Below the pieces are notes generated by a model. The model was given only the letters and a program-made list of their open reading frames with translations, was not told the origin of the DNA and did no database searches. From Thermococcus celer Vu 13 = JCM 8558 (lineage in GTDB: Archaea; Methanobacteriota_B; Thermococci; Thermococcales; Thermococcaceae): a stretch of 64,000 nucleotides of DNA. The stretch covers positions 1,240,001-1,304,000 of the forward strand of contig NZ_CP014854.1 of assembly GCF_002214365.1 (NCBI RefSeq), given 5' to 3'. Below are positions 5,410 to 53,295 of the stretch, in pieces; position 1 is the stretch's first letter; each line of letters begins with the position of its first letter. A program made the translations under genes and the position numbers.

Positions 5410-6174
5410 GTGGTCGATGTGGTGAATAGGGACGAGGTAGTCGGGTTTCTCGACGAATACCTGCAGATCTCAGCCTTCCCCGACAAGTCGAGCAACGGCC
5501 TGCAGGTCGAGGGGAAGGAAGAGGTCAGGAGGATAGCCTTCGCCGTCGATACGACCCTTAAGACGATAGAGCGGGCGGTTAAGGGAAGAGCGGACATGCT
5601 GGTGGTCCACCACGGCATGATATGGGGCGGCATAGACTACGTCACGGGCGTGCACTACAAACGCCTGAAGGCGCTGATAGAGGGCGGCCTGAACCTCTAC
5701 GCGGCCCACCTGCCGCTGGACGCCCATCCCGAGGTCGGAAACAACGTGGAACTCCTAAGGATCCTCGGCCTCGAGCCTAAGGGACCATTCGGCGAGTATA
5801 AGAGCTTGGACATCGGGTTCTGGGGTGAGTTCGAGGAGCCCCAGCCGATTGAGAAGGTAGCGCAGATAACGGCGGAGAGGCTCGACGCAACGGTCAGAAC
5901 CTACGACTTCGGGAAGGGGGAGATAAAGACCGTCGGGGCGATAAGCGGAGCCGGGGCCTTCGCCCTTGAAGAGGCGCACAGGAGGGGCATCGACCTGCTG
6001 GTCACCGGGGAGTTCGGGCACGCCGATTACCTGACCGCGGTGGACCTGCCGCAGAGCGTCCTCGTCGCGGGCCACTACAAGACGGAAACCCTCGGGGTTA
6101 AGGCGTTGATGCCGCTCCTGAGGGAGAAGTTCGGGGTTAGAACGGTATTTATTGACAACCCCACAGGACTTTAG
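5410..6174 (+). CDS. Nif3-like dinuclear metal-centre protein
   Basis: 254 residues from GTG 5410. This start has a GAGG about 10 bases upstream; an in-frame GTG at 5401 is too close to it. Family motifs are SSNGLQVEG near the N-terminus, VVHHGMIWGG (paired His around residues 67-68) and AGHYKTETLGVKAL near residue 222. These match the NIF3/DUF34 family, which forms toroidal hexamers with a dinuclear metal site; proposed roles include GTP cyclohydrolase I-like activity and metal insertion. The last codons (FIDNPTGL) are AT-richer than the rest and are duplicated in diverged form at 14932-14958, beyond the island that follows. The present 3' end therefore seems to be supplied by the island. 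Confidence 0.85.
   Translation: MVDVVNRDEVVGFLDEYLQISAFPDKSSNGLQVEGKEEVRRIAFAVDTTLKTIERAVKGRADMLVVHHGMIWGGIDYVTGVHYKRLKALIEGGLNLYAAHLPLDAHPEVGNNVELLRILGLEPKGPFGEYKSLDIGFWGEFEEPQPIEKVAQITAERLDATVRTYDFGKGEIKTVGAISGAGAFALEEAHRRGIDLLVTGEFGHADYLTAVDLPQSVLVAGHYKTETLGVKALMPLLREKFGVRTVFIDNPTGL
6148..6174 (+). repeat. Left copy of nif3-terminal direct repeat (att-like)
   Basis: These 27 bases encode FIDNPTGL-stop, the C-terminus of the Nif3-like protein. The copy at 14932-14958 encodes FIDEPTGL-stop. By my alignment 19 of 27 bases match and most differences are synonymous, which indicates two diverged copies of the same gene end rather than chance. The AT-rich island lies exactly between the copies. 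Confidence 0.7.
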
Positions 6175-6343: not shown

Positions 6344-9300
6344 ATGTTAGAGGTTAATTCAACAAAAATTATAGACAATACCCCTGGCAAATTTCTTAAG
6401 GATGTTCTAAGAGACCAGCTGAAGAATTGCATAGAGGCAAAATTTGCCATAGGTTACTTCTTCTTGAGTGGGTTTGACTTAGTTGATGAGGACTTTCCCA
6501 AGAATGTAGTCAAAAGACCGTTTTTGAAACTTGTAATGGGGAATGAAACCACTTTACCAACAAAGGAGGAGCTGGTTTCGGGATACAATTTAAGGGAGGT
6601 ATTTAAGCATAAAATGATTGAGGAGTTGCAATCCAAGGAATTAACAAAACAGCAAATAAACCAGCTAAGGAGATTGAGAGACTACATTGCAAACAACGTA
6701 ATAGATGTGAGGCTTTTTGACAAATCGAGACTTCATGCTAAGCTTTACCTGTTTTTAAAAGACCCAAAGGACAGATATGGGTCTCCGGGAGTGGCAATTG
6801 TTGGCTCTTCAAATTTTACAGCTGCGGGATTGACAAAGAATAGAGAGCTGAATGTGATTTTGACTGAGAGAGAGGATGTTCTCTATCTCAACAAATGGTT
6901 TGATGAATTGTGGGATGAGGCAATTGATTTTAATGAAGATCTAATCAAAGTCATTGAGATTTCAGGTGCTATTCCTGAGGCAAAATACCCAAAACTTGGC
7001 AGATTCATTGATCCGGAAACTCTCTTCAAGTACCTTGTATATAAATGGACGGAAGGCAGAGTTCTAAATCTAATTGAAAAGGATATTTTAATGGAGTTTC
7101 AGCTTGTTGGTGTTATTAATGCTATAAATATCATGAACTATTACAATGGAGTGATCCTTGCGGATTCCGTTGGCTTGGGGAAGAGTTTCATGGCTGCAGC
7201 AATAATTCAGGAGTTCCTAAACAGAAAACACCCGCACTGGATCCCAAAAGAGAAAGAATACCCTGCTGTTATGCTTATTCTTCCACCATCCCTAATCTCC
7301 CAGTGGGAAGATTTGCTTGTCGGGAGAGCTGATGATGAAACGCGGACAAGACTTGAGAGAGGAAAAAAAGTAAGGGTGAACTCGGGGTTCTTCTTCAAGA
7401 ATAACTTTAAGAGAATGGTGAAAGGTGATTACAATTACAAAATATATGAGATATATGATGAAAGTGGGAAGAAGTTGTTGGGTAAGATTGCATTTCTTTC
7501 GCTTGGCCTTTTCCAAAACTACAAAGCAGATTTGAAGAAAGGGATTGTTGATGAAGGTTTGAAAAGAATGGCTGACGAATACGATCTTTTTGTGATAGAT
7601 GAAGCACACAAGTACAGGAACAGAAGAACAAATAGGTGGAAGGCGGCAAAGGCTTTGCAAAGAAAATCAAACAATTTCCCTAATAAGTTCATGCTTTTAA
7701 CCGCAACACCATTAAACAACACGATAGATGATCTTTATAACCTGATACGGATATTCACAGATGATACTCTCATAACATTTAGAATGAAAAATATCCCGAT
7801 TGACGAATTAATAACGCAATACAAGAAGCTCAAGAGTGAATACGAGAAAAAGAAGGATGAAGAGATCAAAAAAGATTTGAAAAATGTGGCTATTAGTATT
7901 AAAAGAAAAGTGCTTGATGATGTGATGATTCTAAGGACAAGAAGACATATTTTGGATGAGTTCAAAGATTTAAAAGTGGACGGCAAGAAACTGGTTTTCA
8001 AGGATCCCACACCATACAGCATTGATTATTCCTCCTTTTATATAGACAGTTTTACTGAGTTAATAAAGCTCATATCCAGAAACATTGAGAGAATCAACTT
8101 TGAGCACACGAAGCTATACGGTGTGAGGTACGTTGTGTTTGAGGAGGACGAAGAGGAAGAAAGCTATAAAGTAATTGAGGTCTCTGATCTGTTCAGGCTT
8201 TTACTTAGTAAGAGGTTAGAAAGCGATATCTTTGCTTTTGAAACAACTCTCAGGAAGATATACGAGAAAGAGAAGATCTTCTACTCTCTGTTTAAGAAAC
8301 ATGTTGACAAAATAATGAGCGAGGAGGAATTGAAGGAGTTAATTGCTAAAGCTTTGGAGGAGGCTAAAATTAAAAAGGATCTTGAAGATGTGTCTCAAGA
8401 GTTTAATACAGAGACCGAAGAGGAAGAAACCTGGTTTGATAAGGTCGTCAAACTGCTGAATGAATATGTTGAAGAATACGCACTTCAATCATTTGCACCA
8501 GTCGATAGAATCAGAACAGGATTGAAGATAGCCCTTGAGAATCTTAAGCGGGATCTACAGCTGATGGATGAGATTTTTGATGCACTTGATCGGCTTAAGA
8601 TTAGAGAAGACGGCAAATTAAAGGTTTTTGGGAGAATCCCCAAGAATGACGATGAGATTGTTGAATCAGAAATTTTCTGCTATAAGAACGATCCCAAGCT
8701 TGAAGTCCTGAAGAATCTTATTGCAAATCCAAAATACAAATCTGAAAAGCTTTCAAACATCCCGACATTAAATGGTAAAAAGATCATTATTTTCACGCAG
8801 TACAAGGACACCGCCTATTATATCTATCACAATCTCAGGGAGTGGATTGAAAGAGAAGTTGACCTCCATCCATGGCTCAAGGATAAAAGGACGGATAGTA
8901 TAAAGATAGCACTCGTTACGGGAGACACGGACACAACAACAAAGATCAACTACATAAAGAGGTTTGCTCCAAAGGCAAATGCTGGAGAAGAGGAAGCAAG
9001 AAGATATGGAGAAGTTGACATTCTCATATCAACCGATGCTCTTAGCGAAGGTGTTAATCTGCAAGATGCTGATGCTGTTGTTAACTTCGATTTACCCTGG
9101 AATCCCATGATAATTGTCCAGAGAGTTGGAAGAGTGAACAGGATAGGGAACGAAAAAGACGTTTATGTCCTCAACTTCACACCTACAAGAGAAATAGAGG
9201 TTCTTGTGGGAATTCTAAACAAGCTCAAACAGAAGATTGAGGATATAACGCTTGTTGTTGGTAAGGAGTCCAGAATACTAAGTCCTGAGGAGGAGATAAA

Positions 9301-10084
9301 TGTGGAGACATTTGGTGAGAGGATAAAGAAAATTTCCGAATTCTCCATGACTGCTCTTGAGGAGTTTAGCATTTCTGAGGAATTCAAGCAGTGGTTTGGA
9401 GAGGGAATTCCACAGGAACAGATCGATGAATACAAGCTCCTGAACATTGTACAATACGAGCTGGGCATAACAAGAGAGGACTTTGAAGAGGTTAGAAATC
9501 TTGAGAATGGGCCTTACTACACCTATGTAAAATCTGGGACTGGAAAGGTCTACAGCATTTATGAGTTCTATCGTGGGGATTCCAGAATAGATAAGAAGAT
9601 AATTAGCATGGGTGATGACGGATTGAGGTTTGAATCGCCCCTCGTTCTGCTCGATCTTGTGAGAAACAGGGAGATGAATCCAGTAGAACTTGATTTGGCA
9701 GCTGAGAAGCTAAAGAAGATTGAAGAAAAAGTTGAAAAAGAGCTCAAAAGATTAAGAAGAGAGTTCAAGCTTCAACAAAAGGGATTCCTATACAACTTGT
9801 ACAACGCCTTGATTTTAGAAAGGGAGAACGCAAAGGAACTTGAGAAGTACAAGCCGGTTGTTAATATATTGCAGGTACTAGACTATCGCCAGTATTCGAG
9901 GGAGATAAAATCTCTGCTTGTTCAGAGAAATCTGATCGAGGTTGACAAGAACAATAATGTGAAAATCAAAGATCTTAAAGGCGTTGTTGGCGCTCTTTAC
10001 AACTACTTTTTAATGATGAACATGGCGGACATTAAATCTCTAAAAGTTGTGAAGAAGCACTTGGGGTGGTTCTATGGTCATTAA
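6344..10084 (+). CDS. PLD-like nuclease / SNF2-family helicase fusion
   Basis: 1246 residues. An N-terminal phospholipase-D-like domain (about 1-210) has the HxK motif HAKLYLF (H131, K133) and the downstream GSSNFTAAGLTKNRELN. A two-lobe superfamily 2 helicase follows. Motif I is DSVGLGKS (about 274-281), the DEAH box is at 419-422, and motif III is LLTATPLNN (451-459). Motif IV is KIIIFTQY (about 812), and the arginine-finger motif QRVGRVNRIG starts near 926. A long charged helical region lies between the lobes (about 490-790). It is the first gene of the island operon, overlapping the methylase by 11 bases. The combination fits a DNA translocase with its own nuclease in a restriction or anti-phage system. 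It recalls DISARM DrmD, but a complete DISARM set is absent. Confidence 0.85.
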   Translation: MLEVNSTKIIDNTPGKFLKDVLRDQLKNCIEAKFAIGYFFLSGFDLVDEDFPKNVVKRPFLKLVMGNETTLPTKEELVSGYNLREVFKHKMIEELQSKELTKQQINQLRRLRDYIANNVIDVRLFDKSRLHAKLYLFLKDPKDRYGSPGVAIVGSSNFTAAGLTKNRELNVILTEREDVLYLNKWFDELWDEAIDFNEDLIKVIEISGAIPEAKYPKLGRFIDPETLFKYLVYKWTEGRVLNLIEKDILMEFQLVGVINAINIMNYYNGVILADSVGLGKSFMAAAIIQEFLNRKHPHWIPKEKEYPAVMLILPPSLISQWEDLLVGRADDETRTRLERGKKVRVNSGFFFKNNFKRMVKGDYNYKIYEIYDESGKKLLGKIAFLSLGLFQNYKADLKKGIVDEGLKRMADEYDLFVIDEAHKYRNRRTNRWKAAKALQRKSNNFPNKFMLLTATPLNNTIDDLYNLIRIFTDDTLITFRMKNIPIDELITQYKKLKSEYEKKKDEEIKKDLKNVAISIKRKVLDDVMILRTRRHILDEFKDLKVDGKKLVFKDPTPYSIDYSSFYIDSFTELIKLISRNIERINFEHTKLYGVRYVVFEEDEEEESYKVIEVSDLFRLLLSKRLESDIFAFETTLRKIYEKEKIFYSLFKKHVDKIMSEEELKELIAKALEEAKIKKDLEDVSQEFNTETEEEETWFDKVVKLLNEYVEEYALQSFAPVDRIRTGLKIALENLKRDLQLMDEIFDALDRLKIREDGKLKVFGRIPKNDDEIVESEIFCYKNDPKLEVLKNLIANPKYKSEKLSNIPTLNGKKIIIFTQYKDTAYYIYHNLREWIEREVDLHPWLKDKRTDSIKIALVTGDTDTTTKINYIKRFAPKANAGEEEARRYGEVDILISTDALSEGVNLQDADAVVNFDLPWNPMIIVQRVGRVNRIGNEKDVYVLNFTPTREIEVLVGILNKLKQKIEDITLVVGKESRILSPEEEINVETFGERIKKISEFSMTALEEFSISEEFKQWFGEGIPQEQIDEYKLLNIVQYELGITREDFEEVRNLENGPYYTYVKSGTGKVYSIYEFYRGDSRIDKKIISMGDDGLRFESPLVLLDLVRNREMNPVELDLAAEKLKKIEEKVEKELKRLRREFKLQQKGFLYNLYNALILERENAKELEKYKPVVNILQVLDYRQYSREIKSLLVQRNLIEVDKNNNVKIKDLKGVVGALYNYFLMMNMADIKSLKVVKKHLGWFYGH

Positions 10085-13000
10085 AGTTGAAGAGCTGAGG
10101 GAAGAGGTTGACAAGAAGATTAAAAGGTTTGAAAAAGAAGAGATCAAAATTTCAGGGAAAGAGTATCCCATATATATTTTCGAGAAGGACGAGGATATAA
10201 ACCTTTTTGAAGGCATACTTTTTGCTGAAACTGATAAGAAGACAGAGCTCTCTGATTTGTTAAATTACAAGCCTATGAGTGGCTACGCTGCAAGACTTGG
10301 CATTATAATTTACAAAAACGAAGAACTCATCGTCAGGGATTACAGAGCAAACAAGCAGATAAGAAAGACAATACCCAAAATTAACAAACCATTCCTCAAA
10401 AAGCTGGAGAAGGTTTTGAAAGAGCCCAACAGCAAGAACCTCTCGGATTTGTTTAATAGATCCGATGTAATTCAGGAGTTTTATGTCCTTTATAAAAAGT
10501 CTAGGAAGTTTTTGCGCAACAACATCAAAGGTATTCCTGAGGAGGAGAAAAGGGAGAAATTCATTGATAACTTCATGATGCAGATGCTCACCCTGTGGTA
10601 TCTGCAGGAAAAAGGATTTTTCAACAGGGATAAAAGGTACTTCATAACAAAATTCATGGATTTAAAGCAGAAAAGACTTTTTGGAGGTTTTGGAAGCTAT
10701 TACGATTTTCTAAGGTATTTTTTCAAGAAGATAAAAGATTCAGATGAGCCATACGTTGAAGATGAAAGCATAGGTAAATGCGTTGTTATCGGTCCAGCCG
10801 TATTTCTGAACGGTGAAGATGGCGATGCAGCTATAACAATTCCGGATAAATGCTTTTATCAAGAAGGTGTCACTGAGAAGCTTGTAAATTTAACACCGAG
10901 AGGCAGGAGAAGAACGATTTCCGAAAAAGACATTGATTTTGACATCCCCCTGCTCAATCTTTTTGAGAGCAGGGACTGGATTGATGGAGATATTGATGAG
11001 TATGTTCTTGGCTCGCTTTATGAGAAGCTGATGACAGAAACTGAAAGAAAAAAGACCGGTTCATATTACACTCCTGAGGAAATAACAGAATATATCTGCA
11101 AGAACACAATTGAACCATATCTTGTTGACAGAATCAACGAAGAATACGGGAAAAACTACAAGAATATAAACGAATTAATTAATGCAGGAGATAGTAAAGA
11201 GCTGCTGAAACTCTTTGATCTGCTGAAAAACATCAAGATCCTCGATCCAGCCGTTGGCTCTGGCCATTTCCTTGAGAGCGCCATTAATGTTCTTGTTGGC
11301 ATCTACAGGGAGCTGAAGGACAAAGCAAAAGAAGCAGGAATCGAGAAGCTTGAAATTCTCATTGCAGATGAAGAGGGTAGGATAAAGTCACTGAATTTGC
11401 TTGAGATTCCTGAAAAAGAGGGTTTGTTTGAAATATATGTTAAGTTTTTCATAATTCTCTCAAGGAATGTGTATGGCGTTGATATAAATCCTTCGGCGTT
11501 GAAGGTGGCAAGAGCAAGACTTTTCCTTATGCTTGCGAAGCATTTCAACGCCAATGCAGATCTTTTCATCAGATTTCCAAATGTTCACTTCAATTTGAGA
11601 GAAGGAAATTCGCTCATTGGTTATATGAATATTGAGAATATCGAAAAAGAAAAGCCCAAAGGACAGCTGCAACTTGATTTATTCATGACAAAGAAGCAAG
11701 CCAAACATATCAGAGAGAGGATTAAGGTAATATCTGAACTAAAACCCTATCTCGAAAACACGGCTAAAGCACTAAAAATCAATGGGAATATTGTAAAAGA
11801 GGTTGAAGAGTTAAATAAGATATTAGCGAGGGAAAAACTTTCATGGGGAGACTTTGAAAAAGTCTTAAAAACAAAAGAAAAACTCATAAGAATCCTCATC
11901 GCTTCATTAAATTCTCAGTATGCAGTTCCTTTAAACAACCTTTTAAGAGATATCACAGAGTTATTCAATCAAAAACTGGATGAGAAGTTCGCTGAGGAGC
12001 ATGGGATTGATCTTGATACATTAAAATCTACAAAGTGGCTACCAGGAAATAGAAAGATGTTCCACTGGATATTTGAGTTCCCTGAAGTGTTTTTGAGAGA
12101 AAATCCAGGGTTTGATGTTGTTGTGGGAAATCCGCCTTATGGAAGGTTAAAGCAGATCATAGAGGATAATGACGAGAAATATTTTATATCTGGGTTGTAT
12201 GGAGAGCTTTATAGCTACCAGGTGGGAAACTTGAACCAATACAAACTATTCCTTGAAAGATCTTACTTCCTTGTTGGGGAAGGTGGATATTTCTCTATGA
12301 TTTTTCCATCGTCTTTCCTTGGAGAGAACGATTCCAAGGAGTTGAGAAAGCTATTTTTTGAGAAGGCCATGGTTAGGAAAATCCTTGAGTTCCCAGAAAG
12401 AGCGAGGGTTTTTGAGGGAATTACACAGGCAGTCACGATTCTCGTTTACAAGAAAGAAATTATTGACCAAAATTACGATTTTATGCTGAGGACAAATATT
12501 GAGAGTAGAGATATGATTAATTCCCTCACTGATTTCACTATCATTTCAAGAGATGATCTCAAAGCTTTAACTGGGGATGAATACAGAATCCCACTTTTCA
12601 CGAATCCAAAAATCGAGTGGGAAATACTCAAGTATATCTCAAAATATCCACCATTTAAAGGTGATGAAAACCATCCGCCAGTGGGTGATGTTGGAGTAGG
12701 GCACTTGGACGAGACCTTCGATAAAGAATTCATGAGCGATGAGCCTGCTGATGACTTGCTGATTAAGGGTATCCATCTTGACAGGTATTTCGTTAATCTT
12801 GACCCGGATGGGCCAAAACCGAGGTGGATAAAGAATAAGGAGAGGTTTTTTGAGAAGAAGCCCGAAGCTGAAAAGATTACAAAATTGAATAAGATTATCG
12901 GTAGAAATACGATTAATAAAGCTTCTAAACCAAGACTGAGATTTGCTCCATTAAAAGCAGGGTATGTTATAACAAACAATGTAAAATTCATAATAAAAAA

Positions 13001-13517
13001 GGATAAAAATCTAGATGAACATTACATTACTGCTTTTTTAAATTCAACTTTGCTAAATTGGAGATTCGAATTGTTTTCTTTTCAAAATAGAGTTAATAAT
13101 TACGAAATAGAATCCCTCCCTATCCCACGAATCTCTCTCTCAGAACAGAAACCCTTCATAATCCTCGCCAAATACATTCTTTTTTTCAAGCAATACCGGA
13201 ATTACTTCGCCAAAGAAGATAATCATCTCCAGTATATCACAGATTATTTTGATAACCTGATAGACTGTCTTGTTTATGAACTTTATCTTGGAGATTTAGT
13301 TAAAATTCCTGTAAAATCTTTTGTAGAGAATAAGTTAAAAGATATTGAGTTACCTGACAATCTCCTTGAGGAGGACAGAGATAAAGTTGAAAAAACTCTT
13401 AACGAAATAAAAGAGGTCTTTAACCAGCTTGAAAAAGACAAAAAACTAAATGAAAACCTCTATTTAATCAAATTGCATCCCTGGGTCAAGCAGATCTACA
13501 CATCCCTTGGGGGGTAG
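10074..13517 (+). CDS. Eco57I-type N6-adenine DNA methylase
   Basis: 1147 residues, overlapping the helicase gene by 11 bases. SYYTPEEITEYICKNTI (motif X-like) precedes the SAM-binding motif ILDPAVGSGHFLES (near residue 389). The catalytic motif IV is DVVVGNPPYGRLK (NPPY near residue 685), which specifies N6-adenine methylation. The C-terminal third has a target-recognition-like segment with NNYEIESLPIPRI near residue 1010. The N-terminal ~300 residues show no clear PD-(D/E)XK nuclease, so this looks like a methylase without its own nuclease, unlike type IIG enzymes. Within the operon it would mark self DNA while the PLD-helicase attacks unmodified DNA; that division of labour is inference. 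Confidence 0.9.
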   Translation: MVIKVEELREEVDKKIKRFEKEEIKISGKEYPIYIFEKDEDINLFEGILFAETDKKTELSDLLNYKPMSGYAARLGIIIYKNEELIVRDYRANKQIRKTIPKINKPFLKKLEKVLKEPNSKNLSDLFNRSDVIQEFYVLYKKSRKFLRNNIKGIPEEEKREKFIDNFMMQMLTLWYLQEKGFFNRDKRYFITKFMDLKQKRLFGGFGSYYDFLRYFFKKIKDSDEPYVEDESIGKCVVIGPAVFLNGEDGDAAITIPDKCFYQEGVTEKLVNLTPRGRRRTISEKDIDFDIPLLNLFESRDWIDGDIDEYVLGSLYEKLMTETERKKTGSYYTPEEITEYICKNTIEPYLVDRINEEYGKNYKNINELINAGDSKELLKLFDLLKNIKILDPAVGSGHFLESAINVLVGIYRELKDKAKEAGIEKLEILIADEEGRIKSLNLLEIPEKEGLFEIYVKFFIILSRNVYGVDINPSALKVARARLFLMLAKHFNANADLFIRFPNVHFNLREGNSLIGYMNIENIEKEKPKGQLQLDLFMTKKQAKHIRERIKVISELKPYLENTAKALKINGNIVKEVEELNKILAREKLSWGDFEKVLKTKEKLIRILIASLNSQYAVPLNNLLRDITELFNQKLDEKFAEEHGIDLDTLKSTKWLPGNRKMFHWIFEFPEVFLRENPGFDVVVGNPPYGRLKQIIEDNDEKYFISGLYGELYSYQVGNLNQYKLFLERSYFLVGEGGYFSMIFPSSFLGENDSKELRKLFFEKAMVRKILEFPERARVFEGITQAVTILVYKKEIIDQNYDFMLRTNIESRDMINSLTDFTIISRDDLKALTGDEYRIPLFTNPKIEWEILKYISKYPPFKGDENHPPVGDVGVGHLDETFDKEFMSDEPADDLLIKGIHLDRYFVNLDPDGPKPRWIKNKERFFEKKPEAEKITKLNKIIGRNTINKASKPRLRFAPLKAGYVITNNVKFIIKKDKNLDEHYITAFLNSTLLNWRFELFSFQNRVNNYEIESLPIPRISLSEQKPFIILAKYILFFKQYRNYFAKEDNHLQYITDYFDNLIDCLVYELYLGDLVKIPVKSFVENKLKDIELPDNLLEEDRDKVEKTLNEIKEVFNQLEKDKKLNENLYLIKLHPWVKQIYTSLGG

Positions 13518-13519
13518 GG

Positions 13520-14938
13520 ATGAGAATAAAGACATTGAAAATAAAAAACTTCAAAGGATTCGCAAATGAAATAGAGATAGACCTTAAGGGTAAAAATCTG
13601 GTTATATATGGCGAAAACGGCTCTGGAAAGACATCTTTGGTTGAAGCGTTGAAACTTCTTTTCGATTCAGCATCAAGCGAAATAGAATTGGAAAAATACA
13701 AAAATGTGTTCACAAAACAGCCAATGGAGATATCTATTAAGAGGACAAATGGGGAAGCAATATCTCTAAAAACAAAATCCAAAAAAGAAAAAAGAAATGG
13801 CGAAGAAAAGGAAATCGGTCTAACAAATCCAGACGGATATGGAGACGGAGAAAGAATCTTCCTTGAAGCTCTTTCAAGGTCAACAAGTATTTTGAGTTAC
13901 AGACAATTGATGAAAATTTATGATTTAAGCACTCCTGAAGATTTTTATGAGCTTTTCATCAGGAATATAATGGCATACTATCTCATCCCACCAAGAAGAG
14001 AGAAAACATTAATTGAAGAATTTCAAGAGCTGGAAAAACTAAAAAAGGAGCATCCAAGAAGTAAAAAGAGAATCAGGGAGAAGGAAGAATTTATTAAAGG
14101 AGAAATTAATAAAATTTTTGCAGAAATAAAGGAAACATGGAATCAATATACTCAGACACTTACCGGAGATAATATTAAGATTGAATGTTCATTAGAAGAA
14201 CTGGGCAAGCTTAACTTTAGTGTCAAATGGAATGGAAAGGATGTAAGTGACATTTTGAGTTACTTGAATGAAGGACGGTTAAATGCCATATCTTTAGGTT
14301 TATTTCTGGCGTACTACAAAAGATTCAATGATTCCCCCTATAAAATGCTTCTTTTGGATGATGTTGTTATTGGACTTGACATGAATCTCAGGATACCGTT
14401 ATTGGACATTCTTCAAAAAGATTTTGAGGAAGAATATCAAATAATCATAACCACTTTCGATGAAAACTGGTTCAATTTGATGAAACAATATTTAAATAGT
14501 AATAAATGGGAATTTATGAAAGTTTTTGTGAAAAGGACAGATAACAACAACCGTCCTTTTATTGTTGGTAGTGAGCATCAGGATTATCTTCGAAAAGCTA
14601 AGGAATATCTCAACAATGGCGATGTTCCAGCGGCGGCGCTTTACACAAGACTTGAATTTGAAAGGATTGTTCTAAAATATGCAGAAAAAAGAAGACTAAA
14701 AATTGGTTTCAGAAGAAAAGTACAAAAAATACCTATAAACGAGATTTGGGAGGCGGTGAAAGCTGATCTGCCAAAGGCTAAAACAATACGTAAAAGAGTT
14801 GATACTTACAAATCTATACTATTAAATCCGGCTGTTCATTATGATCCGAGACCTAAATACAGGCAAGAAGTAAGCTATGCTATAGATGTTGTTGAGAAGC
14901 TAAAAGAAAAAATCACGAGAGAGCTAAACTCTTCATAG
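13520..14938 (+). CDS. SMC/RecF-like ATPase of the island operon
   Basis: 472 residues, starting two bases after the methylase stop. The N-terminus MRIKTLKIKNFKGF and Walker A GENGSGKTS (31-39) are typical of SMC/RecF/AAA_15 ATPases. Walker B is MLLLDDVVIGLD (near 275-285), preceded by a signature-like NEGRLNAISLGLFLA. The inter-motif coiled coil is short (about 165-200), with no zinc hook. Residues ~350-472 form a separate helical domain containing ALYTRLEFERIVLKYAEK and ILLNPAVHYDPR. The layout resembles ATPases that carry C-terminal effector domains in defence proteins (RloC/PrrC-like), but the domain is not identified. The last two codons and the stop overlap the chromosomal nif3 remnant at 14932. 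Confidence 0.8.
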   Translation: MRIKTLKIKNFKGFANEIEIDLKGKNLVIYGENGSGKTSLVEALKLLFDSASSEIELEKYKNVFTKQPMEISIKRTNGEAISLKTKSKKEKRNGEEKEIGLTNPDGYGDGERIFLEALSRSTSILSYRQLMKIYDLSTPEDFYELFIRNIMAYYLIPPRREKTLIEEFQELEKLKKEHPRSKKRIREKEEFIKGEINKIFAEIKETWNQYTQTLTGDNIKIECSLEELGKLNFSVKWNGKDVSDILSYLNEGRLNAISLGLFLAYYKRFNDSPYKMLLLDDVVIGLDMNLRIPLLDILQKDFEEEYQIIITTFDENWFNLMKQYLNSNKWEFMKVFVKRTDNNNRPFIVGSEHQDYLRKAKEYLNNGDVPAAALYTRLEFERIVLKYAEKRRLKIGFRRKVQKIPINEIWEAVKADLPKAKTIRKRVDTYKSILLNPAVHYDPRPKYRQEVSYAIDVVEKLKEKITRELNSS

Positions 14939-14958
14939 ACGAGCCGACGGGACTTTGA
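14932..14958 (+). repeat. Right copy of nif3-terminal repeat (orphan gene end)
   Basis: In frame this encodes FIDEPTGL and a TGA stop, and it is GC-rich like the chromosome. It is no longer attached to a nif3 reading frame. It most likely represents the original end of the Nif3-like gene, displaced by the island. The stop codon of the ATPase gene lies inside it. Confidence 0.7.
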
Positions 14959-15872: not shown

Positions 15873-18611
15873 TCAGCCGAGGCGCTTCTTCACCTCGGCT
15901 ATCGCCTCCTCGGCCTTCAGCGGGTTCTTTATCCTGCCCTGGGCGAGCTCCTTCCTTCCACCGCCGCCACCGCCGGCGACGCCCGTTACAACCCTCGCCA
16001 GCTCTCCGGCCTTGAGGTCGAGACCGTCGCCAACCGCGACGACGAAGTGCCCCTCCCTCGTTACCAGAACGATGACCCTCTTATCCTTCCTCAGACGGTT
16101 GGCGGCCTCGCGGAGGTCCTCCATGGTTCCCTCGACGACCTCCCCTATGAACTCGACTTCACCGACCTTCTCCACCTTGCTCTCGAGCTCGTAAACCAGA
16201 AGCCTGGCCAGCTCCTTCCTGAGCTTCTCGACCTCCTTCTTTGCCCCCTTCCACTCGTTGAAGAACCTCTCGGCCGTTTCCGGGACCTTCTCGGGCGGAA
16301 CGCGGAAGACCTCGCTCGTCCTCTTCAGTATCCTCTCCGTCTCCTGCATCCAGTTAACCGCCGCCTCGCCGGCCGCGAAGATTATGCGCTCGACACCGTC
16401 CTGTATGCGCTCCGTTCTCAGGATCTTAATCGGGCCCACGAGGCCGGTGTTCGGCAGGTGGGTTCCACCGCAGGCCTGGACGTCCCAGTCCTTTATCTTG
16501 AGGACGCGGATGACCCTTCCGGGCACGACACCGCCCTGGTAGAGGCGGAAGCCGTACCTCATCTCGGCCTCGGTCCTCGGGAGCCACTCCCAGGTTACCT
16601 CCCTGTTCTCCATGACTACCCTGTTGGCAAGGCGCTCTATCTCCCTCAGCTCCTCCTCGCTTATGCGCTTGTAGTGGGAGATGTCGAGCCTGGCCCAGTC
16701 CGTCGAGAGCTGGGAGCCGGCCTGCCAGACGTGCTTCCCAAGGACCCTGACGAGCGCCCCCATGAGGACGTGGGTCCCGGTGTGGTGGCGCATGTGCTGG
16801 ATCCTCCGGTTCCAGTCAATCCTCCCGTGTACTTCCTGCCCCTCGGCAAAGGCCTCCGGCTTCTCCACCCTGTGGAGGATGACCTTTCCCACCTTCTGGA
16901 CGTCGAGAACCTTAACGCCGTTCAGTTCACCGAGGTCCGCCGGCTGTCCACCGCCCTCGGGATAGAAGGCCGTCGCGTCGAGAACGACCCAGTCGTCTAT
17001 GACCCGGAGAACCCTCGCATCGAACTCCTTCATGAAGGGGTCCTCGTAGTACAGCGTCCTCGTGTCCGGGATGTCCTTGACCAGCTCGAAGTCGACGATG
17101 TATTTGGCCGCTTCGCCCTTCGAGCCCTTCTCGGCCTCCTTCGCTACGAGGGTGTAGAAGTTGTCCGGGACCTCAACCTTAACCCCCTCCTTCCCCGCGA
17201 CCTCGGCCACTATCTCGGGGGTTAACCCGTGGCTCTCGTAGAACAGGATGAGCTTTTCGAGGGGGATTTCGTTCTTTCCGGCCTTCTTGAGCCTGACTAT
17301 CTCCCTCCTCACGAGATCGCTCCCGCGCCTGAGGGTCTCGGCGTAGCGCTTCTCCTCCACGTTGATTATGTCGAGGATAACGTCCTCCATCTCCTTGAAC
17401 TCGGGGTAGGTGTTGTGGAGGGCCTTTATGTGCATAGCCACTATCTCGGAGAGGGGCATCTCCAGACCGAGCTCCCTCAGATGCCGTATGCTCTTCCTTA
17501 TGAGGAGCCTCGCGAGGTAGCCGGCCTTGACGTTAGAGGGGATGACCCCGTCGGCGAGCATGAAGGTCAGCGCCTTGGTGTGGTCGGCGATGGCGTATAT
17601 CAGCTCGTAGGGCCTCACGGCCTTCTCGAGTTCTTCCACGGTTATGCCGATGCGGTTGGCCACCTCCCGGCGGAGAACCTTCAGGTCGCCCATGTCCTCG
17701 ATGTCGAACATTCCGGCCAGGCGGGAGTTCTCCATGAGGATCCTATCGTCTATCCTCTCTACCCCGGCCTCCCTCTTGAGCGGCTCGACCACGTAGCCGA
17801 GGACCGCGTCGTAGGCCGTTGGCGTCCCCTGGCTCATCCAGACGAGCCTCTCGAGGCCGTAGCCCGTATCCACCACCTTCGTCTCCATCGGCACGTAGCG
17901 GTCACCCTTTATCACGACGACCTGGCCCGGGTCTGCGTTCTCGGGGGCCTTCTTGTACTGCATGAAGACGAGCGTCGCCACCTCGAGGCCGCGGTAGAGC
18001 ACCTCGAAGGCCGGCCCGGCGTTCCCCCCACCGGCCCACGGGTTCTCCTTGAAGGTTATGTCTTCCGCCTTCATGCCCAGTTTTTTGGTGAAGAACTCGA
18101 AGGCGAGTCTGACCGTCTCGTCCATCCAGTATACCGGCTTGCCCGGGTAGTTGAAGGCGTGGTGGGCCATCATCTCGAATATCGTGAAGTGCCTGCCGGT
18201 TATTCCGACGTTGTCTATGTCCGTGAAGCGGATCGAGGGCTGGCTTATCGTGAGCGGGTTTGCAGGTGGATCGGCCTCGCCGCTTATCACCCACGGCTGG
18301 AAGTCCATTATGCTCGCTCCAACGAGGAGAACGTCGTCGCGCCACCTCGGGAGAACTGGATAGCGCTTGACCCTGCCGTGGCCGTGCTTCTCGAAGAAGC
18401 TCAGGAAGGCCTCGCGCATCTCGTCGAGGGTGTACTTCCGCGGTATGCCCGGCTTCCCGATGAAGGAGTACTCGTCACACGGCGGGTCCCCGCAGGTCTC
18501 CCTGTCGGGATCGAGCGTCCAGAAGGGCTTACCGCAGACCTTACACTTCTTTCTGATCCATCCTTCCTCCTTGAACATCTCGGTGGTCATGTCCATACCC
18601 ATGAGCCTCAC
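15873..18611 (-). CDS. alaS: Alanyl-tRNA synthetase
   Basis: 912 residues, the length of archaeal AlaRS. The archaeal N-terminal zinc-ribbon-like segment ([24 protein letters not shown]) precedes the class II catalytic core. The editing domain shows [12 protein letters not shown] (near residue 607) and [10 protein letters not shown] (near 713), the metal-binding HxxxH and CxxxH. A C-terminal DHHA1 domain ends in the glycine-rich [14 protein letters not shown]. The start could be ATG 18611 or one of the methionines just after it ([10 protein letters not shown]). The enzyme charges tRNA-Ala and clears mischarged Ser and Gly. Confidence 0.97.
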
Positions 18612-18646
18612 CTCTTAAAGCTGAATTAAAAAGAGGGGGGAACTAA

Positions 18647-18955
18647 TTAAGGTTTTTGTTGGTCGTTCAAATCGGGCCCGAGGTCGACGTCGACGTCCTC
18701 GAAGTTCTCCTCATCGACGAGGACGAGGGGGAGATTGACCTTCCTGAGGAACTCCACCAGCCTCTCCTCGCGCCTCTCCATGAGCTCGAGCTTGTGCCTC
18801 AGGCTCCGGTTCTCTATCGCGAGGCTGTTGGCCTCGTCCACCTTCAACCGAAGTTGCATCCTGAGCTCGGTTATCTCCTCCTCCAGCTCCCTGATGGAGC
18901 GCTCGAGCCTGTCTATCTCCTCAAGGTACTCACGACAGACGCGTTCCTTTATCAT
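18647..18955 (-). CDS. Small coiled-coil protein
   Basis: 102 residues. Residues 5-75 form an almost continuous charged coiled coil (EEIDRLERSIRELEEEITEL...), ending in a short hydrophobic strand (NLPLVLVDEEN) and an acidic tail (DVDVDLGPD). No enzyme motif is present. The ATG follows directly on a C/D box sRNA (18957-19014) on the same strand, so the sRNA may be processed from the 5' leader of this mRNA. Function is unknown. Confidence 0.6.
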   Translation of the reverse strand: MIKERVCREYLEEIDRLERSIRELEEEITELRMQLRLKVDEANSLAIENRSLRHKLELMERREERLVEFLRKVNLPLVLVDEENFEDVDVDLGPDLNDQQKP

Positions 18956-18956
18956 T

Positions 18957-19014
18957 TCGGTCAGCCCCGCGAAACCTCCTCACCGCTCAGGGGGCTCCAG
19001 ATTCATCATCCCGT
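18957..19014 (-). ncRNA. C/D box sRNA (2'-O-methylation guide)
   Basis: On the reverse strand the order is: C box GATGATGA (19003-19010), a 12-base D' guide (18991-19002), D' box CTGA (18987-18990), a 4-base spacer, C' box TGAGGA (18977-18982), a 12-base D guide (18965-18976), and D box CTGA (18961-18964). Two 12-base guides between C/D' and C'/D are exactly the archaeal sRNA geometry. The D' guide is ATCTGGAGCCCC and the D guide is GGTTTCGCGGGG; I could not assign their targets. A TTATTAAC element about 25 bases upstream may be the promoter. Confidence 0.75.
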
Positions 19015-19093
19015 AACCTTTGTACCCGAGGGTTAATAACGTTATCCAACACTCCTGGACTCGCGTACCCCGATTACCGATCACGGGTGGATA

Positions 19094-19111
19094 TGTTTAT
19101 AAATATAAACA
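19094..19111. promoter_or_regulatory. Palindromic TATA region upstream of the symporter
   Basis: TGTTTATA and TATAAACA form a perfect inverted repeat with a 2-base centre. The sequence is itself TATA-like in both directions. It could serve as promoter, regulator site or both, leaving a leader of roughly 130 bases before the symporter start at 19268. A second TATA-like stretch (near 19155-19170) would give a shorter leader. I see nothing else in the 19020-19267 gap. Confidence 0.4.
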
Positions 19112-19267
19112 CCTCTGCCGAAGTTTCGTTGTCTTTGTCCAGTCCGTTCTCCATAAACCTTAAAATGTATAAGGCTCATAACTCTCAACGTTAAAGTACA
19201 TTGACGTCGGTAAAAGCTGTGCAAAGCCACCAAACAAACCTGAATGAACATATATGGGGGTGCCTCG

Positions 19268-50591: not shown

Positions 50592-51653
50592 TTAAGTATC
50601 CCCCGAGTAAATTTTGATTAATTTGGTTTCCATTATACCCCACGTGTAGTTCCTTAAAAAGATCCTCTTACCAACGTGGGCTTTTTTTCGTATTATCTTG
50701 GGGTTACCAGAGATCTCTCTGAGAGTCTTTTCAACGGCATCCTTCGAGTATTCAACAGGAATTACAAACTTTTTGGCCAGTTTTTCCGGCAGTGTCCCCT
50801 TAACCACAAGAACCGGAGTTCCCACCCACATGGCCTCAAACAGCTTGTTGGGAGATGCAATCCTGTTGTTAAGAATGCTTGGATTATAAAGAATAAATGT
50901 TAAATGGGCGTTGGAAAGTTCCATAATAGCCTGTTCATGGGGGATATACCCCAAAAAAATGGCAGGAGAAGATTTTATCTTTTCCTTAAGAACACCCATA
51001 CCAGCTATCCTCACCTCAAATCCTAAGGATCGTGAAATCTCAATGATCTCCTCTATAAAACGGCCTTTAGACAGAACTCCTCCATAGAAAAGCGTGAATC
51101 TCTTAGCCTTTCTCTGCAAATGTTTAAAAGGATTTATCGTGTTCATAACTACAACGTTTGCCTTCAGGCGTGCACGACCAAGAAGTATCCTGGTCATCTC
51201 AGGATTAACGGTTATAACAATATCAGACTCGCGCAACATAAGGGAATCAAAGCGTATTATCAATGAAGAAATTATCCTACTCCCAACGAAGCTCTCGTAG
51301 AGATCATGCACATCGTAGACCCACTTTATTCCCTTGAGCTTTTTGAAAACGAACCCCAGAACGGCCGTATCAAAGTCGTGGGTATGAATGGCATCAGGCT
51401 TTAACCTCAAAATAACCCTGAATACCTTAAGATAGAAAAGAGGAAGCTTCAAGACCATTAGCGGACCATATCCAGCTTTCGGTCCAAGGCGGAGAACAGA
51501 GAATCCCTCAATTTTTTCTTCTTTTGGATATCTTCTTTCCCTATCCCAGGCTATTACAATAACCTCATGTCCCGCTTTAGCCAGACTCTTAGCTTCCTTG
51601 TAGACCCTGGGATCAGGCTTGAACGGATTGCTGACGGTCATTACAATTTTCAT
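50592..51653 (-). CDS. Family 4-like glycosyltransferase
   Basis: 353 residues from ATG 51653 (MKIVMTVSNPFKPDPRVYKEA), preceded by AGGTGAT at about 5 bases; upstream in-frame starts lie inside the neighbouring gene. The GT-B N-domain shows HTHDFDTAVLGFVFKK and WVYDVHDLYESFVG. The C-domain has FTLFYGGVLSKGRFIEEI and ASPNKLFEAMWVGTPVLV, the donor-binding helix. No membrane segment is present. It is co-transcribed with the GT2 gene upstream and overlaps nothing; the epimerase start follows by one base. Confidence 0.88.
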   Translation of the reverse strand: MKIVMTVSNPFKPDPRVYKEAKSLAKAGHEVIVIAWDRERRYPKEEKIEGFSVLRLGPKAGYGPLMVLKLPLFYLKVFRVILRLKPDAIHTHDFDTAVLGFVFKKLKGIKWVYDVHDLYESFVGSRIISSLIIRFDSLMLRESDIVITVNPEMTRILLGRARLKANVVVMNTINPFKHLQRKAKRFTLFYGGVLSKGRFIEEIIEISRSLGFEVRIAGMGVLKEKIKSSPAIFLGYIPHEQAIMELSNAHLTFILYNPSILNNRIASPNKLFEAMWVGTPVLVVKGTLPEKLAKKFVIPVEYSKDAVEKTLREISGNPKIIRKKAHVGKRIFLRNYTWGIMETKLIKIYSGDT

Positions 51654-51657
51654 TTTA

Positions 51658-52629
51658 TCACCTGAATGCTCTCTTTCCAAGTAACAGTCCAACAACGAAT
51701 CCAAGGCTTATAACGTTATGGAAAAGGAACATGACGGGAGCCAGCCCAAGCGCGTCCGTGTTCCCCGTTTTTCGCCATAGTCGCACTCCCTCACCTGCCA
51801 AGGCGACCCAGTAAAGAGCAAATAGCCATCTAAAGAAAGAGAATAATGACAAACTCACCTCAAAGCCAAGGAACGCCAGCGGGAAGAGCCAAGTCCAGGA
51901 AAAATAACCCTTTCTTAGTGCAACACTTTTAACCGCCCCGTAATTAAAGCTCTGCTTTATAAATCCCCTCCAGCTGGAGCGGGCGAAGTAGTAGCTTCTA
52001 ATCTCGGGGTTAAAGAACAGTCTGTATCCCCTCTTGTTTATTCTCAGATTGAACTCAAAATCATCTCCAATAATCATATCCTCATCGAAACCCCCCACTT
52101 CCATTGCGATTTTTCTATCATAAAGGGCGAAAGCAACGGTCCTCGCGAAGTGAGGCCTTTCCTCGAACCAGAACGTGCTCGCACCGCTCAGGGGAGATGA
52201 GTAAACGAGGGTAACGAATCTGGCCAGTCTACTCTCGTAGAGCTTTATTATCTTCCCCCCAACGCCAGCCAGCTTTGGTTCTCTCTTCCTGACTTTAAGA
52301 AACGTTTCGACGCTTTTTCTCAGAAAATCCCGCTCCGGATACGCATGGGCCCCAAATATTATGAAGAACTCTCCCTTAGCATCTCTGAGCCCCATGTTGA
52401 AAGCGTATACCTGTCTGCGCTTTGGGTTGACTTTATAATTGATCAGGCCTGGGTGGCTTTTTTCAAATTCCCTTATTATTTCCGCGGTCTTATCAGTACT
52501 CATGCCATCATAGACAAAAATCTCATATCTGTCTTTTGGATAGTCCTGATTAACCCACTCTTCGAGACACTTCCGGATGTATTTCTCCTCATTATAGGCT
52601 GGGATTATAACACTCACAAAGGGAAGCAT
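51658..52629 (-). CDS. Membrane-anchored family 2 glycosyltransferase
   Basis: 323 residues from ATG 52629 (MLPFVSVIIPAYNEE), preceded by GGTGG at about 5 bases; a further 15 codons upstream are open but lack an RBS. GT-A motifs: VYDGMSTDKTAEIIREF near residue 40, and FGAHAYPERDF at the DxD position (AHA, unusual: the first Asp is replaced). FDEDMIIGDDFEFNLRI follows as the acceptor ED motif. Three C-terminal helices anchor it to the membrane. It is probably involved in extending a lipid-linked glycan. Confidence 0.85.
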   Translation of the reverse strand: MLPFVSVIIPAYNEEKYIRKCLEEWVNQDYPKDRYEIFVYDGMSTDKTAEIIREFEKSHPGLINYKVNPKRRQVYAFNMGLRDAKGEFFIIFGAHAYPERDFLRKSVETFLKVRKREPKLAGVGGKIIKLYESRLARFVTLVYSSPLSGASTFWFEERPHFARTVAFALYDRKIAMEVGGFDEDMIIGDDFEFNLRINKRGYRLFFNPEIRSYYFARSSWRGFIKQSFNYGAVKSVALRKGYFSWTWLFPLAFLGFEVSLSLFSFFRWLFALYWVALAGEGVRLWRKTGNTDALGLAPVMFLFHNVISLGFVVGLLLGKRAFR

Positions 52630-52689
52630 GATTCCACCTTTGGTAAAGTTTATATTGGAGATGGCTTTTAACATTGTTGGTGTTCAAAG

Positions 52690-53295
52690 ATGGCTCAAAA
52701 GTTTTTCGTCCATCCATTAGCCGTTGTTGAGGAAGGCGCCGAGATAGGAGAGGGAACCAGAATATGGCACTTCGCCCACGTCAGAAAGGGTGCCAGGATA
52801 GGCAAGAACTGCAACATCGGAAAGGACGTTTACATCGATGTCAACGTTAAAATCGGAAACAACGTGAAGATCCAGAACGGGGTAAGCGTTTACCACGGCG
52901 TCAAGGTCGAGGACGACGTCTTCCTCGGCCCCCATATGACCTTCACGAACGACCTCTATCCAAGGGCCTTCAACGAGGACTGGGAAGTCGTCCCGACCCT
53001 CGTCAAAAAGGGCGCTTCTATTGGAGCCCACGCGACAATAGTCTGCGGGGTTACAATCGGTGAGTACGCGATGGTGGGGGCTGGAGCCGTAGTCACAAAA
53101 GACGTCCCGCCCTTCGGCCTCGTCTACGGCAACCCAGCCCGTCTGAAGGGCTTCGTCTGCTACTGCGGGCATAAGCTAACGGAGAAAATTGGGGAAGACA
53201 AGGAGTATATCATCTTCAAATGCTCCCACTGCGGTAGGGAAGTTAAAATAAGAAAGGAAGATTATGAAAGGTACCTGAGGGAAAAAGACCTGTGA
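52690..53295 (+). CDS. wbpD: UDP-2-acetamido-3-amino-uronate N-acetyltransferase (WbpD-like)
   Basis: 201 residues of left-handed beta-helix acyltransferase. Hexapeptide repeats run from [20 protein letters not shown] to [20 protein letters not shown] (about 5-135). The catalytic-site segment is [15 protein letters not shown] near residue 78. Unlike typical WbpD, it carries a C-terminal zinc-ribbon-like extension with CYCGHKL and [13 protein letters not shown] (about 154-190). It acetylates the 3-amino group of UDP-GlcNAc3NA using acetyl-CoA. First gene of a forward operon with wbpE, wbpB and wbpA-like genes (4-base gap to the next). Confidence 0.88.

Follow-up and report, generated by a model that had tools for sequence, protein, structure and literature searches.

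A horizontally acquired helicase, methylase, and ATPase island in Thermococcus celer with the features of a restriction-modification-like defence module

Do three adjoining AT-rich genes in the genome of Thermococcus celer Vu 13 = JCM 8558 make up one defence system, and does that system already have a name? The genes are located in a window of 64,000 nucleotides (the whole stretch of DNA that was analysed; contig NZ_CP014854.1, positions 1,240,001 to 1,304,000). They are three plus-strand open reading frames (ORFs) arranged head to tail (window coordinates 6344–10084, 10074–13517, and 13520–14938). The helicase and methylase ORFs share 11 nt, and the methylase and ATPase ORFs are 2 nt apart. 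The GC content of the helicase, methylase, and ATPase genes is 38.5, 36.7, and 33.5%, respectively, vs 55–61% in the flanking genes. Related loci and archaeal C/D-box RNA families likewise point to a Thermococcales host. The overlapping or abutting, AT-rich arrangement described in a first-pass annotation was thus borne out by the ORF coordinates, the −11 and +2 nt junctions, and the GC content. The features of the island were the following:

6148–6174, plus strand: left island edge, a rebuilt and divergent nif3 3′ end, 67–78% to relatives (sequence comparison).
6344–10084, plus strand: HKD(PLD)-SNF2 helicase-nuclease, 1246 aa (ORF, domain, and motif evidence).
6638–6913, plus strand: PLDc_2 nuclease domain of the helicase, residues 99–190 (Pfam match).
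10074–13517, plus strand: predicted N6-adenine DNA methylase, Eco57I/BrxX/CamA-like, 1147 aa (domains, motifs, fold match).
12141–13163, plus strand: variable region of the methylase, residues ~690–1030, likely the target-recognition part (identity profile, TaqI_C match).
13520–14938, plus strand: RecF/Rad50/SMC-like ABC ATPase with a short coiled coil, 472 aa (domains, motifs, model).
14585–14932, plus strand: C-terminal helical domain of the ATPase, putatively HEPN-like, with NPxxH at residues 436–440 (14825–14839) (model, alignment).
14932–14958, plus strand: right island edge, 27 nt left over from the 3′ end of native nif3, 78–93% to relatives (sequence comparison).

The first protein had been described as an HxK nuclease joined to an SNF2-type helicase, which was confirmed by the Pfam domains PLDc_2 (residues 99–190), SNF2-rel (267–480), and Helicase_C, as well as by intact motifs. 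It has a single HKD site (H131, K133, and GSSN at 154–157; HAK..GSSN), and its motor carries Walker A (277–281, GLGKS), DEAH (419–422), and QRVGR (926–930). The best PADLOC match was the candidate family C3a139 'HKD+Snf2' (PDLC01075; 1e-158 over residues 8–1157), and the match was full-length by the standard of that family, which distant Prevotella and AbiE-linked Thermococcales helicases also match. A DrmD-like region was detected in addition (PADLOC, 1.8e-30). The idea that the nuclease had been moved onto the helicase as a new design had to be dropped, since the protein belongs to C3a139 and HKD-helicase fusions have been described for PbeA (PMC10853773) and Type-2 BR systems (PMC12839542). 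The PADLOC model of C3a139 comprises the helicase only, and no PADLOC family fits the methylase or the ATPase of the trio.

The second protein, earlier read as an NPPY adenine methylase having no nuclease of its own, matched Eco57I, N6_Mtase, and TaqI_C, in agreement with that reading, and contains motif I (391–399, DPAVGSGHF) and NPPY (686–689). Profile matches to CamA (2e-31), BseCI, BrxX, and TaqI assign it to the N6-adenine group; a DrmMI-like match was obtained with PADLOC (9e-36), and the top structural match was BrxX (2e-13), found with a model of low confidence (mean pLDDT 65). Domain and profile searches detected no nuclease domain, and residues 1–290 gave no convincing library match. 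Because the model is of low confidence, the N-terminal part may hide a cryptic nuclease or an extra domain.

The third protein proved to be, as proposed, a RecF/SMC-like ATPase with an extra C-terminal helical domain (Pfam SMC_N and AAA_23; residues 356–471 of the predicted structure). Its motifs are Walker A (31–38, GENGSGKT), the signature LNEGRLNA (249–256), and Walker B (278–287, LLDD), and the model (mean pLDDT 78) combines a Rad50/SMC-type head, a short coiled coil, and a helical tail. In the alignment, NPxxH is invariant in all ATPase members long enough to include the tail, and the arginine position of the HEPN motif Rx4-6H is hydrophobic in every member. HEPN/DUF4145 Pfam matches to the tail were sub-threshold and came from one homologue only (E 0.02–0.04), Foldseek matched the head and not the tail, and Pfam and PDB searches of the C-terminal domain gave no firm assignment. 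The tail may bear a faint HEPN-like character, with the arginine of Rx4-6H lost.

An ATPase unique to the T. celer locus, the outcome that the first-pass annotation had named as speaking against a module, was rejected: the order helicase–methylase–ATPase is repeated in 15 other loci, at identities down to ~20–25%. These are from Archaeoglobi, Thermotogaceae, and Crocinitomicaceae MAGs (one locus each), eight Bacteroidia genomes, Prevotella, and three viral or prophage contigs; some host names may be wrong through MAG binning. Identities to the helicase, methylase, and ATPase were 74/79/73% in Archaeoglobi (L133), 61/66/66% in the Crocinitomicaceae MAG (L051; the contig ends within the ATPase gene), and 61/63/65% in the Thermotogaceae MAG (L052), and the −11 and +2 nt junctions of these three loci are identical to those of T. 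celer. The order is beyond chance, because 15 other loci share it and the three closest also share the junctions. The eight Bacteroidia genomes were picked by ATPase homology alone, and all had the helicase and methylase upstream, as did the Prevotella locus (L049) and the viral or prophage contigs (L137, L138, and L140); an Aerophobetes MAG (L070) has kept decayed pieces of all three genes. Catalytic motifs are intact across the 16 three-gene loci, and in 15 of the 16 full loci the methylase and ATPase genes meet at a junction of −4 to +21 nt. The pairwise distances of the three proteins are correlated (Mantel r 0.62–0.86, p 0.0005), in part because the loci fall into a close and a distant group. 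In the Prevotella-type loci L049 and L140, an extra 464-aa gene lies between helicase and methylase, with an SLFN_AlbA_2 domain in L049.

ATPase relatives were also found outside complete trios. The clear relatives in the plasmid search were from Nostoc, Prevotella, and Thiospirochaeta; only a methylase end lies upstream of the Nostoc gene, the distant Thiospirochaeta relative has no helicase-methylase pair, and a further ATPase locus (L131) has a broken methylase. No ATPase match was found in the phage and E. coli collections, and weak 750–800 aa matches in three genomes (G216, G124, and G125) were rejected for their unrelated contexts. The Thiospirochaeta homologue, together with the optional presence of the ATPase described below, would suit an accidental neighbourhood in one island, with an ATPase that acts alone in abortive infection next to a restriction-modification pair unrelated to it. 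We hold such a coincidence to be improbable, as the ATPase directly follows the methylase, often with a 4-nt overlap, its divergence is correlated with that of the pair, and its closest homologues (62–73%) were found only with the pair or a remnant of it.

The helicase and methylase adjoin in loci with enough flank, also where the ATPase is absent. Nine orthologous helicase-methylase loci have no ATPase (L034, L035, L036, L053, L058, L060, L065, L086, and L059; the genes of L054 are the same ones as in L065), and among 115 Thermococci the ATPase is present only in the T. celer genome. In further Bacteroidia helicase loci, the methylase was present and the ATPase absent in 14/14, a few of the contigs ending soon after the methylase. 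Two-gene and three-gene loci are interleaved in the helicase tree. In the Archaeoglobus locus L059, a gene at 17362–19227 stands in place of the RecF-like ATPase; its motifs read as an OLD-TOPRIM type ATPase, and it was rejected as an orthologue. A domain scan of the Thermococcales locus L040 placed an AbiEii gene between an Eco57I methylase and an HKD-SNF2 helicase, and with these neighbours the 1126-aa HKD helicases of other Thermococcales were rejected as Type-2 BR for that locus. An AbiEii gene likewise lies between a related HKD-SNF2 helicase and methylase in L037, also of the Thermococcales.

The simplest reading is a conserved core of helicase and methylase with the ATPase as an optional accessory, because there are helicase-methylase loci without the ATPase, the tree is mixed, and AbiEii and OLD-TOPRIM alternatives occur. 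That all three genes are obligatory was rejected on the same nine orthologous and 14/14 Bacteroidia loci. The proposed three-gene module therefore survived as a recurrent, defence-like trio but not as a unity of three, the core being two genes. The ATPase might instead be a true core subunit comparable to BrxC or to DUF499 of BREX/BR, acting as a DNA-scanning clamp on which methylase and helicase-nuclease assemble, with the two-gene loci derived and simpler. Its position directly downstream of the methylase at tight junctions in 16 full loci, its co-divergence with the methylase (r 0.81), and the deep spread of the trio from archaea to Bacteroidia would agree with such a role, which we nevertheless consider rather unlikely, given the 9 orthologous and 14/14 further Bacteroidia loci where it is missing and the intermixing of both locus types in the helicase tree.

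The trio is situated inside the 3′ end of nif3. The empty site is seen in a relative (L143), where nif3, orf155, orf133, and alaS are contiguous. In T. celer, the last 27 nt of the native nif3 (93% to G052) are directly after the ATPase gene and overlap its stop codon. Left of the island, nif3 ends in a divergent, rebuilt copy; the insertion thus contains hardly anything beyond the three genes. The island retains no integrase, and no further islands were found at the nif3 3′ end in the genomes of five relatives. The trio was acquired horizontally, having moved as one three-gene unit, and it is also carried by the viral or prophage contigs. A second AT-rich island is present at 45000–53000 of the window, apparently for polysaccharide synthesis (glycosyltransferases, UDP-GlcNAc epimerase-like).

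No system in PADLOC 2.0.0 or NCBIfam 20.0 matched the trio in full, no NCBIfam family was above its cut-off for the module proteins, and no name for C3a139 or the trio was found in the literature searched, which left out the 2020 ABC-ATPase classification (PMC7544218). Within these sources, the earlier statement that the trio is not a recognised named system stands, and the annotation libraries searched recognise the helicase only. The module resembles class 1 DISARM in its SNF2 helicase (DrmD-like) and adenine methylase (DrmMI-like) but is without DrmA, DrmB, and a separate DrmC, has its nuclease fused to the helicase, and carries the ATPase as an extra. DISARM class 1 was rejected as the identity, as it had been at first sight: drmA and drmC are absent within the three-gene island, and the DrmB MZB domain is absent genome-wide. 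In fold and motifs, the methylase is similar to BREX PglX/BrxX and to Type IIG/IIL enzymes (MmeI); unlike in BREX, there is no PglZ, BrxC, or BrxL beside it, and unlike in Type IIG/IIL, no nuclease domain was detected in it. BREX was rejected because the three genes include neither pglZ nor brxC/pglY, and the flanks are housekeeping genes.

Hma and BREX-Related (BR) Type-1 and Type-2 systems also consist of a helicase, a methylase, and an ATPase, the latter two being a DUF1156 methylase and a DUF499 AAA+ ATPase, with DUF3780 added in Type-2 (PMC8565338, PMC12839542), and Type-2 BR helicases have an N-terminal HKD nuclease (PMC12839542). The module has the same trio composition and an N-terminal HKD on its SNF2 helicase, a shared trait insufficient for membership, but its ATPase is a RecF/Rad50-like ABC ATPase and its methylase is Eco57I/BrxX-like. 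Hma/BR was rejected as the identity, since the ATPase matches SMC_N/AAA_23 and not DUF499, HmaC was not among the best PADLOC matches, and Eco57I was found in the methylase and DUF1156 was not. The addition of an ATPase to a helicase and a methylase had been taken for an unusual design; the trio as such is known from Hma/BR, and what remains distinct is the protein families. A genuine Hma/BR locus of native GC content exists elsewhere in the T. celer genome (L194, G000:C1:1586001-1604000; genes at G000:C1:1589835-1599849), with a DUF1156 methylase, a DUF499 ATPase, and an SNF2 helicase with NOV_C. It was used as a positive control (DUF499 E=0, HmaC 8e-45, DUF1156 present, HmaB 4e-52).

In PbeABCD/CxC systems, an HKD-SF2 helicase fusion adjoins an ABC ATPase, sometimes with methylases; PbeABCD has a CxC zinc-hook ATPase, a DndE-like partner, a small protein, and cytosine methylases (PMC10853773). 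The fusion next to an ABC ATPase is common to both, but the ATPase of the module has a short coiled coil, its methylase is of the adenine type, and there is no DndE-like gene. PbeABCD/CxC was rejected: the best PbeC match covered residues 1–49 only (7e-10), and the island has no fourth gene. PrrC is an ABC-ATPase with HEPN beside a type I RM system (PMC3710099). The module is similar to PrrC/RloC guards in having an ABC ATPase with a HEPN or HEPN-like C-terminal part beside an RM-like operon; it differs in the weak HEPN status of its ATPase, from which the catalytic arginine is absent. Judged by its sequences, the trio resembles RM/BR in outline but is built from other families. Precedents exist for the helicase family (C3a139), for HKD-helicase fusions, and for helicase/methylase/ATPase trios; this combination is apparently unnamed.

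In the reading towards which we lean, the module came in by horizontal transfer and has a restriction-modification-like defence core that depends on ATP, to which a guard or regulator, the ATPase, is optionally added; confidence is higher for the helicase-methylase core than for the role of the ATPase. Restriction-modification in the broad sense pairs a DNA methylase with a nuclease whose cutting depends on methylation; the predicted methylase and the predicted nuclease of the module both have intact motifs. Going by their families, the methylase would use its variable C-terminal part to recognise a DNA sequence and would mark host adenines, and the HKD-SNF2 protein would translocate on unmarked invading DNA and then cut it, two HKD sites being paired by dimerisation if PLD-family chemistry applies. 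In the least certain step, the ATPase would probably sense a DNA or protein state and gate the cutter; alternatively, it could be a second line that relies on the conserved HEPN-like tail and comes into play once the core is blocked. PrrC, the HEPN-bearing ABC-ATPase found by type I RM, is a precedent for such a guard (PMC3710099). It is doubtful, but conceivable, that the RecF-like ATPase, with its invariant NPxxH tail, represents a new class of guards for restriction systems, of which it would be the first member. It would then be exchangeable with OLD-TOPRIM and AbiE modules, sense core blockage or free DNA ends, and answer via a non-canonical HEPN-like domain. The locus adds an apparently unnamed, mobile, defence-like trio common to hyperthermophilic archaea, Thermotogaceae, Bacteroidia, and prophages. 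It connects three known designs (DISARM-like helicase/methylase, BR trios, and ABC-ATPase guards) and offers a testable case of restriction cores with a swappable accessory slot.

Residues 690–1030 of the methylase are its most variable part (25–41% identity; the N-terminal and catalytic parts reach up to 78%) and are likely the target-recognition region. In two Bacteroidia loci (L189 and L190), an inverted methylase 3′ fragment adjoins a serine recombinase (Resolvase, 7e-35 and 1.5e-33), a pairing that suggests specificity switching. A third Bacteroidia locus (L188) has an inverted methylase 3′ fragment downstream of the methylase too, and the fragments of all three are likely invertible specificity cassettes. 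The restriction-modification-like core is supported by the variable region and by the L189 and L190 fragments, which resemble invertible specificity cassettes. It is very improbable that the module serves DNA repair or replication and was acquired with an element: the ATPase has a Rad50/RecF fold, and such folds and SNF2 motors occur in repair, but the methylase is variable in sequence, the specificity fragments are probably invertible, the module is mobile and patchily distributed (ATPase in 1/115 Thermococci), and the best PADLOC matches are defence families. In the closest Thermococcales orthologue (L034, genome G055), the methylase has an in-frame stop and the helicase is intact.
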